From: Clostridia bacterium
Lineage (GTDB): Bacteria > Bacillota > Clostridia > UBA1212
DNA length: 35,697 nucleotides
Assembly: GCA_017444825.1 (NCBI GenBank)
Contig: JAFSVU010000038.1
Span: 1 to 35,697, forward strand
Direction of reading: 5' to 3'
The notes under the pieces are model-generated. The model saw only the letters and a list, made by a program, of their open reading frames with translations. It was not told the DNA's origin and did not search any database. Numbering within the stretch: position 1 is the first letter of the stretch; each line of letters begins with the position of its first letter. The position numbers and the translations under genes were made by a program. Below, in pieces: positions 4,078 to 7,989 of this stretch.

Positions 4078-4129
4078 TTGACTTCCTTTGTGAATACAAG
4101 TATAATGATTTTGTGACAGGATTTGTCAC
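4078..4129 (+). promoter_or_regulatory. Strong sigma-A promoter with downstream palindromic operator
   Basis: TTGACT (4078-4083), a 17-bp spacer and a perfect TATAAT (4101-4106). Seven bases after the -10, GTGACA (4113-4118) and TGTCAC (4124-4129) form a perfect inverted repeat with a 5-bp spacer, covering the expected transcription start. That position suits repression. The obvious candidate binder is the XRE-type protein encoded 48 bp downstream, making an autoregulatory loop. The binding itself is inferred. Confidence 0.8.
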
Positions 4130-4177
4130 TTTACATTGGTTACGCAATAATCTAAACTTACCATCGAGGTCCGGACC

Positions 4178-4657
4178 ATGATACAAGACGCACTGAAAAC
4201 TTTACGGAAAAAGAATAAACTTTCACAGGAAGAACTGGCAGACAAGCTTTTTGTTTCAAGAGCGCTTGTGGCCAAATGGGAGCTTGGGAAACGGTACCCC
4301 TCGCCTGAAATGCTTGAAGAGATTGCACGTTTTTTCAGTGTGGACGTGAATTATCTTATAAGCGGAGACGAGAACAGATCTGAGATATCAAAGGAGATCT
4401 CAGAGATGGTACCGGGAGACGAAAGTAAAGATGACGGCGGCGAAGATTTCATGGTCGCGCTTATTGCCAAAAAGATCTCGGACTTCTTAAGATCTTTAAC
4501 CGGCGAAGACAGAAAGATCTTCATGCGAAGATACTACTATTACGACAGTCCCGAAAAGATCTCGAAGGATCTCGGCATGGATATTGATCGTGTCAGGGTA
4601 AAGCTTTCGGAGATAAGGTTTAAGCTTCGGAACTATTTTGAAGAGGAGGGCTTTTGA
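4178..4657 (+). CDS. Chimeric regulator: XRE helix-turn-helix plus sigma-70 region-4-like domain
   Basis: 159 aa. Residues about 4-60 are an XRE/HTH_3 domain (LSQEELADKLFVSRALVAKW, then GKRYPSPEMLEEIARFF). After an acidic linker (about 62-92), residues about 98-157 match the region-4 end of ECF-type sigma factors in Clostridia: FLRSLTGEDRKIFMRRYYY, then SPEKISKDLGM, then a recognition helix and the terminal LRNYFEEEGF. No sigma region 2 is present, so it probably cannot open promoters alone. It may act as a repressor or anchor that also touches the -35 region or RNA polymerase. Its promoter carries a palindrome (4113-4129) suited to autoregulation. The next gene starts one base after its stop, indicating an operon and a functional pair. 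Confidence 0.83.
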   Translation: MIQDALKTLRKKNKLSQEELADKLFVSRALVAKWELGKRYPSPEMLEEIARFFSVDVNYLISGDENRSEISKEISEMVPGDESKDDGGEDFMVALIAKKISDFLRSLTGEDRKIFMRRYYYYDSPEKISKDLGMDIDRVRVKLSEIRFKLRNYFEEEGF

Positions 4658-4658
4658 G

Positions 4659-6161
4659 ATGAACAGAAACGATCTCGATGAAGCGATGAAGAATATTGAC
4701 AATGATCTTGTCAAAGAGACGGCGAACAAAAAGCCGAAAAAGTTCTGGATAGGATTTGGAATCAGTGCTGCGAGCATAGTTCTTGCGGTCACCGTACTGA
4801 CGTCCTTCCTTATCTCAGGCATGTTCAAAAATCCCGTTAAAAATGATGGTTACAAGGACGGGGTGATCGGAGAGAAAAAAGAGACCATTGGCGATAAGAT
4901 AAGAGATTTTATTGACGGTGTGATTCCGGGTTCAAGCGGTTCCGCTTTTAAATATGAGATGGATTCAGGTGCCCCTGCTCCGATGCCGGGATCCAAGGAT
5001 GCTGCATATGCTTCAGACGCAAAATACGGCGGTGCAGATGAATTTATGGAGGTGCCTTCGGAGGGACTTTATTATGATAGAGATATTACCGGGATGAATG
5101 CCGATCCTGTTGCCGGAACGCTTACAGCCGGAGAATGGCGTGATATCGATAACCTTTCCGACTGGTTCAAACTGATCAACGACAACAACTGGTATCCCTA
5201 CGCCGAGAACAGGGCGCTTTACACAAACAAAGCTGTCACAGTGGTAGTTAAGGACGGAGACGCTGCCTGCTTCAACGTTAAAGTTGAGCTTAAGGACGGA
5301 GATAAAGTCATTGGCACAGGAAGAACGGATATTAACGGAAAGGTCAGGATCTTCTACAACCTTAACAAAGAAGGCTTTGATCCCACCGCGGTCACCGTTA
5401 ACGGAAAGAGTTTTGATCTCACTTCCGATTACATTGAAGTTGAGGCAAAGAACGCAGGTGTAAAGCTTCAGCAGATCGACCTTATGTACATGATCGACAC
5501 CACCGGTTCCATGGGTGATGAGATCACATATCTCCAGGCAGAGCTCGTTGACATGGTGGAGCGCATTTCGGCCAAAGATCAATCTGTATCCATCAGAGTC
5601 AGTGTTAACTTCTACAAGGATGCGGACGATGAATATATTGTGAAATATTTCGACTTCAGAGAAGACATTAACCAATGCCTTGAGCAGATAAAGAATGAGT
5701 CTGCCAGCGGCGGCGGTGATTTCCCGGAGGCCGTTCATACAGCACTTGACAATGCTGTCACAGGTCACAACTGGAGAGAAGACGCACTAAAGCTTTGCTT
5801 CTTTGTCCTCGACGCACCGCCTCACGATGAGTCTGAGATCCAGGGTATCAATGCCCAGATCAGAGAAAGCCTCGTTAAGGCAGCAGATCTTGGTATCAGG
5901 ATCGTTCCCGTTTTCTGCTCAGGCGCTGACCAGGCTTCCGAATATCTCTTCAGAAGCTTTGCGGTAATAACCAACGGAACCTTCGTATTCCTGACCAACG
6001 ATTCCGGTGTGGGCGGAGATCACCTTGAGACCTCCGTGGGTGAGTACAAGGTAGAAAAACTCAACGACTGCATGGTAAGGATAGTTTGCGAATTCGCAGG
6101 CTTTACGTATCAGGAACCTGCTCAAAACAGCCAGGGACAGCAGGATGTTCCTCAGCAATAG
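4659..6161 (+). CDS. Membrane-anchored vWA-domain protein, anti-sigma-like N-terminus
   Basis: 500 aa. ATG 4659 was chosen because GAGGAGGG lies just upstream. The N-terminus (LDEAMKNIDNDLVKE) followed by a basic stretch and one membrane helix at about 29-55 looks like the short cytoplasmic tails of anti-sigma-type proteins encoded beside ECF sigma genes in Clostridia. The outside part holds a low-complexity segment (about 60-140), a beta-rich domain with TDINGKVRIFY (about 190-265) and a von Willebrand A domain from about 272. That domain has a MIDAS-type DTTGSMGDE (Asp280), GGGDFPEA and LDAPPHDE. The C-terminus is Gln-rich. It probably senses something at the cell surface and signals to the HTH-sigma4 protein encoded just upstream. 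This is inference from arrangement and topology. Confidence 0.8.
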   Translation: MNRNDLDEAMKNIDNDLVKETANKKPKKFWIGFGISAASIVLAVTVLTSFLISGMFKNPVKNDGYKDGVIGEKKETIGDKIRDFIDGVIPGSSGSAFKYEMDSGAPAPMPGSKDAAYASDAKYGGADEFMEVPSEGLYYDRDITGMNADPVAGTLTAGEWRDIDNLSDWFKLINDNNWYPYAENRALYTNKAVTVVVKDGDAACFNVKVELKDGDKVIGTGRTDINGKVRIFYNLNKEGFDPTAVTVNGKSFDLTSDYIEVEAKNAGVKLQQIDLMYMIDTTGSMGDEITYLQAELVDMVERISAKDQSVSIRVSVNFYKDADDEYIVKYFDFREDINQCLEQIKNESASGGGDFPEAVHTALDNAVTGHNWREDALKLCFFVLDAPPHDESEIQGINAQIRESLVKAADLGIRIVPVFCSGADQASEYLFRSFAVITNGTFVFLTNDSGVGGDHLETSVGEYKVEKLNDCMVRIVCEFAGFTYQEPAQNSQGQQDVPQQ

Positions 6162-6303: not shown

Positions 6304-7989
6304 TTGAAAAACTGCGAAAAGAGCTTTTTTGATAATAAAAAGATGGCAGATCTTAAGATCGTATACGGCAGCTCAGCCGACGATACGCTAAAAAATGCCG
6401 CTTTGAATCTTTCCCGATACGCAGGAAAAGCTTTTGACTGTGATATAAGCTGCATACCTGCCTCGGATATTCACGAGGAGCCCCATAATATCATTTTTGT
6501 TGGGAAAACGGACTTCGACACGGCCAGGGTAAAGGATGCCTGTAAGGGCCTCTACAACTGTGGTATCGCCATTGTGGCAGACGGAGACAACCTTTACCTT
6601 ACGGGTGAAAACGAGACCGGAGCCATGTACGCGGTCTACACCTTCCTTGAAGACTTCGTTGGCTGGCGCTTTTATTCGTCCAAATTTGAAACTCTTGTTC
6701 CTGATGCCGCAAAGGATCTTCCGCAAGACGCATGCATTACATATTCACCGAAGCTCTTTAACCGTGATACTTTCTGGTTTGACAGCTTTGACGTCGAATT
6801 TGCTTCCAAGCTTAAGCTTAACGGTGGTGTTACACGTTCGCGCAAAGGGTACGGAGCATTGGTTAAATATGCGGGACCATTTGTTCATACTCTTCCTGGC
6901 CTTGCCGGAACTCCGAGAGTGCCCGACGTTCAGCCATGTCTTACGGATCCTGAAGTTTACGAAAAAGTCCTTGGCAATGTGCGAAATCTCCTCAAAGAGA
7001 ACCCGGACGCTAAGATAATATCGGTTTCCCAGAACGATTCCCACGATTTCGGACTCGGGTGTCAATGCGATAAATGTAAAGCCATTGACGAGCGGGAAGG
7101 CACGCCAATGGGCTCGCTTCTAACTTTTGTCAACAGGATCGCAGACGATATCAAAGACGATTATCCCGACGTTTTCGTCGATACACTTGCTTACAGGTAT
7201 ACGAGGAAGGCTCCGAAGAGTATACGACCTCGCGACAACGTGATCATAAGGCTGTGCTCAATTGAGTGCTGCTTCTCCCATACCCTTGATTCCGACTGCC
7301 CCCGCAACGTCGCCTTCAGAAAGGACATTGAGGACTGGGCCAAGATCAGTAAGAACCTTTTTATCTGGGACTACACCACTGATTTCCTGTTTTACGTAAT
7401 ACCGTTCCCGAATCTTAAGGTGCTTTACGACAACGTCCGTTTCTTCGTTGACCATAACGTCATAGGCCTATTCGAGCAGGGAAACGGTCAGTCCCAGTCG
7501 GGTGAGTTTGGCGAGCTTCGGGCTTATATGCTGGCAAAGGTCATGTGGGATCCGGATATGCCAAGGGAGAAATTCGAAGAGTTAGTTGACGATTTCCTGA
7601 AGGGTTACTACGGCCCCGGCTGGAAATATGTTAAGGAGTATATCGATAAGGTCTGCGCTCTTTCCGGTGAGACTCATATGGGTATCTACGATTTTGTCCA
7701 GAATAACCTGAGTATTGAGAATAAGGACGAAGCATCCGTTATAGAGGAACTTGAGGGGCTCTGGAAAAAGGCTCTTGAAGCCTCTGATGAGCTCCATTAC
7801 GAAAACGTTGAAAAGTCGTCCCTGCAGATATATTACACTAAACTTCTGAGACTTTGGCATAAAGATACATCGCCAATGGAACTCAAAGACATGTACAGCA
7901 AGTTGAAAAAATACAATATCACCCATTTCAGAGAAGGCGTTAAGCTTCCGGTTGAACCGGATTTTAACAAGCCTTTAGCTGAATGGTGA
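6304..7989 (+). CDS. DUF4838 domain-containing protein (putative glycoside-active)
   Basis: 561 aa, beginning with TTG. The strong AAAGGAG about 9 bases upstream fits this start, and the first in-frame ATG (6343) has no such site. The N-terminal half has the family's NIIFVGKTDF and GENETGAMYAVYTFLEDFVG segments, a fold like the N-terminus of alpha-glucuronidases. The DUF4838 core follows with ISVSQND near 237-243, CQCDKC at about 253-258, and FVNRIADDI. No signal peptide is seen, so it is probably cytoplasmic. Family members are generally found near carbohydrate-degradation genes and are suspected glycosidases, but the reaction is unproven. It is followed 16 bp later by a peptidase gene with its own Shine-Dalgarno site. 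Confidence 0.8.
   Translation: MKNCEKSFFDNKKMADLKIVYGSSADDTLKNAALNLSRYAGKAFDCDISCIPASDIHEEPHNIIFVGKTDFDTARVKDACKGLYNCGIAIVADGDNLYLTGENETGAMYAVYTFLEDFVGWRFYSSKFETLVPDAAKDLPQDACITYSPKLFNRDTFWFDSFDVEFASKLKLNGGVTRSRKGYGALVKYAGPFVHTLPGLAGTPRVPDVQPCLTDPEVYEKVLGNVRNLLKENPDAKIISVSQNDSHDFGLGCQCDKCKAIDEREGTPMGSLLTFVNRIADDIKDDYPDVFVDTLAYRYTRKAPKSIRPRDNVIIRLCSIECCFSHTLDSDCPRNVAFRKDIEDWAKISKNLFIWDYTTDFLFYVIPFPNLKVLYDNVRFFVDHNVIGLFEQGNGQSQSGEFGELRAYMLAKVMWDPDMPREKFEELVDDFLKGYYGPGWKYVKEYIDKVCALSGETHMGIYDFVQNNLSIENKDEASVIEELEGLWKKALEASDELHYENVEKSSLQIYYTKLLRLWHKDTSPMELKDMYSKLKKYNITHFREGVKLPVEPDFNKPLAEW

Follow-up and report, generated by a model that had tools for sequence, protein, structure and literature searches.

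The window analysed here, a stretch of 35,697 nucleotides from a Clostridia bacterium (GCA_017444825.1, contig JAFSVU010000038.1), encodes a regulator that keeps region 4 of a sigma factor next to a membrane protein with an external vWA domain, and the question that it raises is what such a regulator does at a promoter and how its neighbour might control it. The original prediction, made from the sequence alone, saw a single sensing unit in which a DNA-binding repressor domain, acting at an operator that covers the start site, had replaced the promoter-melting domain. The reading favoured by the present analysis, at a probability of roughly 0.7, is that the regulator is a bipartite activator of primary-sigma RNA polymerase, that it promotes its own expression, and that a transmembrane anti-sigma protein holds it back. 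The domains, the pairing of the two genes, the architecture of the promoter and a target element shared across the family were established computationally, and the features of the window are collected in Table 1.

Table 1. Features of the regulator-partner locus, in window coordinates
Feature	Coordinates	Strand	Basis
P1, primary-sigma-type promoter TTGACT-17-TATAAT	4078..4106	+	direct reading
Left half of bipartite element, GTGACA; inferred sigma-4 site	4113..4118	+	two-block motif, covariation
Right half of bipartite element, TGTCAC; inferred XRE site	4124..4129	+	two-block motif, covariation
P2, conserved autoregulated promoter TTTACA-17-TAAACT	4130..4158	+	family-wide arrangement
XRE-sigma4 regulator, 159 aa	4178..4657	+	Pfam, AlphaFold, structural match, paralogues
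XRE helix-turn-helix domain, residues 1-62, recognition helix 28-36	4178..4363	+	HTH_3, P22 c2 match
Sigma region 4 domain, residues 89-156, recognition helix from 136	4442..4645	+	Sigma70_r4, ECF SigL match
Single-pass membrane partner, 500 aa: anti-sigma-like N-terminal tail, transmembrane helix, beta domain, vWA	4659..6161	+	Pfam VWA_4, AlphaFold, conserved adjacency
Anti-sigma-like cytoplasmic tail, two short helices (low model confidence)	4659..4730	+	HMM of partner tails
Transmembrane helix, residues 31-53	4749..4817	+	hydropathy peak and predicted helix
vWA ectodomain, DTTGS metal-site motif	5472..6098	+	VWA_4, motif invariant in 5 orthologues

Domains of the regulator and of its membrane partner

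Pfam matched HTH_3 to residues 6-60 of the regulator (E 1.3e-15) and Sigma70_r4 to residues 104-151 (E 2.9e-6; 27.1 bits, cut-off 24.1), and the 14 matches listed at E≤1 included none to a sigma-region-2 family, in agreement with the proposal that an XRE helix-turn-helix stands in place of region 2. Both domains were matched in all 82 distinct homologues collected for this chimera, across which no region-2 family was among the 25 most frequent families, and a PF04542 scan of the window genome listed 0 of its 8 chimera genes. The AlphaFold model of the regulator, computed from the 82-sequence alignment, has two confident domains (mean pLDDT 87.8) and a weak linker at residues 82-87. In structural comparison, residues 1-64 align with the P22 c2 repressor (Z 12.5, rmsd 1.1) and residues 86-159 with residues 103-175 of the ECF sigma factor SigL (Z 10.8, rmsd 1.9, 73 residues); the predicted sigma-region-4 fold of the C-terminal domain is thereby borne out. 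The regulator is a cI-type XRE helix-turn-helix joined to sigma region 4, without region 2. Lacking region 2, it does not qualify as an ECF sigma factor, and it should be unable to melt DNA or to recognise a -10.

The ATG of the partner gene, at 4659, lies one base past the regulator stop codon (4655-4657), just as had been read from the sequence. About 28 residues precede the transmembrane helix of the partner, and VWA_4 was matched at residues 275-406 (Pfam, E 6.4e-12); the AlphaFold model has a mean pLDDT of 56.8 and is poor before residue 165. The tail can be compared with those of ECF partners in relatives, for instance MKAEDIFNALGYIDDDLLEAA with MNRNDLDEAMKNIDNDLVKET of the window protein. 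An HMM built from the tails of chimera partners matched 14 of 33 ECF anti-sigma-type partners at E≤0.01, versus 3 of 220 other transmembrane proteins, all 3 of them from loci collected for the chimera. By sequence similarity, then, homologues of the regulator have an adjoining transmembrane partner with an anti-sigma-like tail, as ECF sigma factors do, and the single-pass, vWA-bearing partner described originally is recovered. From this tail and the pairing of the genes we infer that the partner tail binds and inhibits the regulator, probably through sigma-4; the covariation analysis of regulator and tail yielded no docking site and did not single out the sigma-4 domain. The next gene downstream (window positions 6304-7989) encodes a DUF4838 protein.

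A family with many putative sensors, and few region-2 sigma proteins in the window genus

Rather than a single unit, as first thought, the locus belongs to a signalling family with many paralogues, eight of them full-length in the window genome. The hosts are Saccharofermentanales-like and Ruminococcus-type rumen genomes; named records include a Mageeibacillus sp. and Ruminococcus, among them R. flavefaciens, and derive mainly from rumen and gut samples. Full-length chimeras are present in all six genomes examined of the genus of the window, in a genus of a second family of the same order and in one genus besides. In scans that scored a limited set of candidates from each genome, chimeras were found at E≤1e-24 in at least 7 of 391 genomes of a class-wide sample and in at least 1 of 398 genomes of a phylum-wide sample. 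At loci not truncated by the end of a contig, a gene for a transmembrane protein nearly always lies directly downstream, mostly overlapping, and the predicted conservation of the gene pair is therefore upheld. These partners are single-pass, with a median of 40 residues ahead of the transmembrane helix. Their ectodomains fall into 29 sequence clusters, vWA being confined to the five orthologues of the window gene, so across the family the regulator and tail are constant and the sensor varies; Pfam assigned no ectodomain family to the seven other partners of the window genome. At one locus in another genome (G003:C24, positions 33449-40502; L134, L137/L086 and L140) three chimera loci stand in tandem with near-identical promoters, and two of the three copies are shortened by stop codons, which suggests recent duplication and decay.

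A census of sigma-region-2 proteins counted 1-3 per genome in the genus of the window versus about 8-10 in two sister genera that are free of the chimera, a difference which suggests that the chimera may have taken over from ECF sigma factors in this genus. The three region-2 proteins of the window genome are a SigA-like protein, one other group-1/3-like sigma factor and one ECF. This ECF (L010, G000:C4) adjoins a tuf-like gene, and the anti-sigma-type protein encoded beside it has an ectodomain rich in repeats. The census also bears on the idea that an unlinked region-2 protein joins the chimera to make a two-part sigma factor, for which the way RsoA joins SigO is a precedent (PMC8103513). 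No short free region-2 protein is among the three, the single ECF is already accompanied by its own anti-sigma-type neighbour, and the -10 of the chimera promoters is the TATAAT of the primary sigma factor; we regard such a composite as very improbable. The sigma-4 domains of ECF factors in relatives are closely related to that of the chimera (E to 1e-22). A tree of sigma-4 domains has 2 label changes and gives a single fusion origin in 40% of bootstraps, a level of support compatible with one fusion or several.

A shared promoter element and the domains that may read it

An unsupervised de novo search for two-block motifs in 77 chimera upstream regions converged on.tGtnaC.tTTTGTcnCttta - 13-15 nt - gnTATAAT. 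The promoter shared by about 70 of the 77 genes accordingly reads TGTnAC–TTTTGTnnC, followed after 22-24 nt by a primary-sigma TATAAT. Motif scores above 12 were obtained for 70 of 77 upstream regions, versus 1 of 1540 dinucleotide shuffles and 1 of 253 other genes in the same loci. That single gene, encoding 405 residues on the minus strand (L132:2336-3553), is sited directly upstream of the L132 chimera gene, and because it carries the family promoter itself the L132 operon may begin one gene earlier. In cross-validation, a model trained on other taxa found the motif in 30 of 34 genes of the window genus versus 0 of 680 shuffles. Almost every scoring member places the element 22-24 nt from the -10. 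Chimera promoters lack an ECF -35 and an ECF-type -10, the -10 being TATAAT; a TG precedes it in about half of all members. Many members have a -35-like sequence after the element, so part of their expression may not need activation, and in subgroup 2 there is no -35 match (CAAAAA).

In the window, the element is the palindrome GTGACA-GGATT-TGTCAC (4113-4129), and P2 has its -10 (TAAACT) at 4153-4158, with an inferred start near 4165. The proposal that the palindrome lies over the start site holds for P1, whose expected start it overlaps, but not for the family-conserved P2, since it stands just upstream of the P2 -35. Upstream of the element in L042 there is a TTGACT-17-TATAAT like P1. In the window genome and G002, P1 could give basal expression that is blocked by bound regulator. 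GTGACA-N5-TGTCAC occurs as two exact copies in the 2.45-Mb genome, versus none for the reversed-pattern control; the second (G000:C40:63861, L169) lies at the end of a mutS-like gene, 23 nt before the TAGAAT of a gene for a large membrane protein resembling mannosyltransferase.

A perfect palindrome over the expected P1 start is what an autorepressor might use, with an XRE dimer on the palindrome blocking P1 and perhaps P2 and the sigma-4 domain serving only to dock the partner. The PDB relatives of the XRE domain are mostly repressors, and the element is a perfect palindrome in the vWA subgroup and in L043, where both arms have changed together, a symmetry well matched to an XRE dimer. In most other subgroups, however, the element is not palindromic; L043, L101 and L131 have the element and the downstream -10 but no P1-like promoter was seen upstream of it, and the fixed spacing to the -10 is not required of a repressor. 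Autorepression is therefore considered unlikely, although it is the strongest of the three alternatives weighed. The activator is favoured because the element keeps its distance from a primary-sigma -10 both at the promoters of the chimera operons themselves and at those of envelope-gene targets, and on these grounds binding of the regulator probably activates transcription; the start-site operator of the original prediction gives way to this arrangement.

Covariation was assessed over 74 promoter-protein pairs (effective number 60) and 148 protein columns. Columns of the right half-site covary best with residues 33, 28 and 29, the top three of the 148 and all in the XRE recognition helix; for those of the left half-site the two best-ranked residues, 145 and 141, lie in the sigma-4 recognition helix, as do 137 and 138 in fourth and fifth place. 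Arginine at residue 28 goes with C at site column 16 in 63 of 63 pairs, and a residue other than arginine with a base other than C in 11 of 11. The interaction between left or right half and domain was reached in 0 of 200 shuffles of a two-clade permutation; in a phylogeny-corrected sign test on independent pairs all pairs agree, the roughly four changes of residue 28 being too few for significance. Within the TGACA subgroup, differences in the right half track XRE residue 29 and the left half does not change, a pattern that speaks against recognition of both halves by an XRE dimer. Together, these sequence patterns suggest that sigma-4 reads the left half-site and XRE the right, rather than that an XRE dimer binds the whole palindrome.

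The position of the left half-site matters for a further alternative, by which the sigma-4 domain of the chimera would displace region 4 of the primary sigma factor on the beta flap and form a hybrid holoenzyme. Phage T4 AsiA/MotA, which remodels sigma, offers a model for such a swap; the domain has a true sigma-4 fold, closest to that of ECF SigL, and the promoters of subgroup 2 have no recognisable -35. The inferred sigma-4 site near -48, though, is beyond the normal reach of the flap. It lies about 14 bp upstream of the apparent ECF placement (TGYAAC, 18 nt to GTC), a comparison read by hand from few promoters, motif discovery on ECF promoters having locked onto the start-codon region. This offset favours DNA reading over a swap on the flap, which we judge improbable, somewhat more so than autorepression.

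Proposed mechanism, precedents and candidate targets

In the activator model, the N-terminal tail of the partner would keep the regulator at the membrane at rest, and a signal at the ectodomain (vWA here) would release it to activate the operon that encodes it and a few envelope genes. At these promoters sigma-4 would read the left half-site, TGTnAC or an equivalent, at about -51 to -46, XRE would read the right half-site, TGTnnC, at about -41 to -36, and the bound regulator would recruit primary-sigma RNA polymerase, which would supply recognition of the -10. The promoter-proximal cI subunit at PRM likewise occupies about -41 to -36, where it contacts sigma region 4. The result would be a signalling unit made from ECF sigma/anti-sigma parts without a sigma factor, working like an ECF/anti-sigma circuit with an activator as its output. 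Each copy probably switches on the operon to which it belongs, together with cell-surface genes; in related bacteria whole sigma factors perform this task.

Precedents exist for the parts: ECF/anti-sigma pairs, SigO-RsoA, GafA/GafYZ and LytTR systems. With the pairs of ECF sigma and transmembrane anti-sigma factors (group IV sigma70; SigV-RsiV and related Clostridia ECFs) the chimera shares the sigma-4 domain, an overlapping gene for a single-pass partner with a similar N-terminal tail and a variable ectodomain, and an autoregulated operon, but it has XRE instead of region 2 and an element upstream of a primary-sigma TATAAT. The class II activators cI and c2 of lambda and P22 at PRM have in common with it the XRE fold and a proximal half-site by the -35, whereas the second reader here would be a fused sigma-4 rather than a second XRE subunit, and control is from the membrane. 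SigO-RsoA of Bacillus subtilis also places sigma region 4 on a protein that lacks region 2, which RsoA supplies, while the chimera has no such partner. In the LytTR Regulatory Systems HdrRM and BrsRM, where the logic of a membrane inhibitor has been demonstrated experimentally, direct repeats lie just upstream of the -35 (PMC6193735). The resemblance extends to a DNA-binding regulator with a membrane partner (a putative inhibitor here), predicted positive autoregulation and repeats upstream of the -35; the regulator here is instead an XRE-sigma4 chimera, in which Pfam found HTH_3 and Sigma70_r4 but no LytTR DNA-binding domain, and its partner has an anti-sigma-like tail. The gene-transfer-agent activators GafA and GafYZ of alphaproteobacteria, of which GafY binds RpoD (PMC9638019, PMC11150451), likewise combine DNA-binding domains, one of them sigma-factor-like, and act with the housekeeping polymerase; unlike the chimera they have a DnaA-like N terminus and an omega-binding centre, and no anti-sigma partner.

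No published description of the XRE-sigma4 pairing was found in the literature searched, which was covered in part. On balance, the family probably represents a class of transmembrane signalling distinct from ECF sigma factors, in which region 4 and XRE form a bipartite activator under anti-sigma control, and which has undergone expansion in one rumen genus and largely replaced ECFs there. If this is true, a domain taken from sigma factors can be redeployed to give an activator its specificity without loss of the anti-sigma circuit; the covariation offers for both heads a residue-to-base code that can be tested by swaps, and the family hints at the way in which gut Clostridia nearly devoid of ECF sigma factors may sense their surface.

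Regulons were searched by sequence pattern, with reversed patterns as controls. Strict bipartite patterns gave 21 matches in five genomes of the genus versus 0 for the reversed patterns. The loose pattern TTTGTnnC-N22-24-TAnAAT was enriched in two genomes (17 versus 1 in G003, 10 versus 1 in G004) and not in the window genome (11 versus 13). The non-self sites examined precede genes for lipoproteins, secreted proteins or membrane proteins, and the sites in the window genome include one upstream of a secreted protein with a CBM9 domain. Two sites of this genome, on contigs C42 and C53, share TGACAATTTGTCTCTTTTTTT with the promoter of the paralogue L003, a match that suggests paralogue-specific regulons. 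In another genome, TTTGTGACC-N-TATAAT stands upstream of an ECF sigma gene (L211, G030:C41), which is possibly a chimera target, with cross-talk between the two systems.
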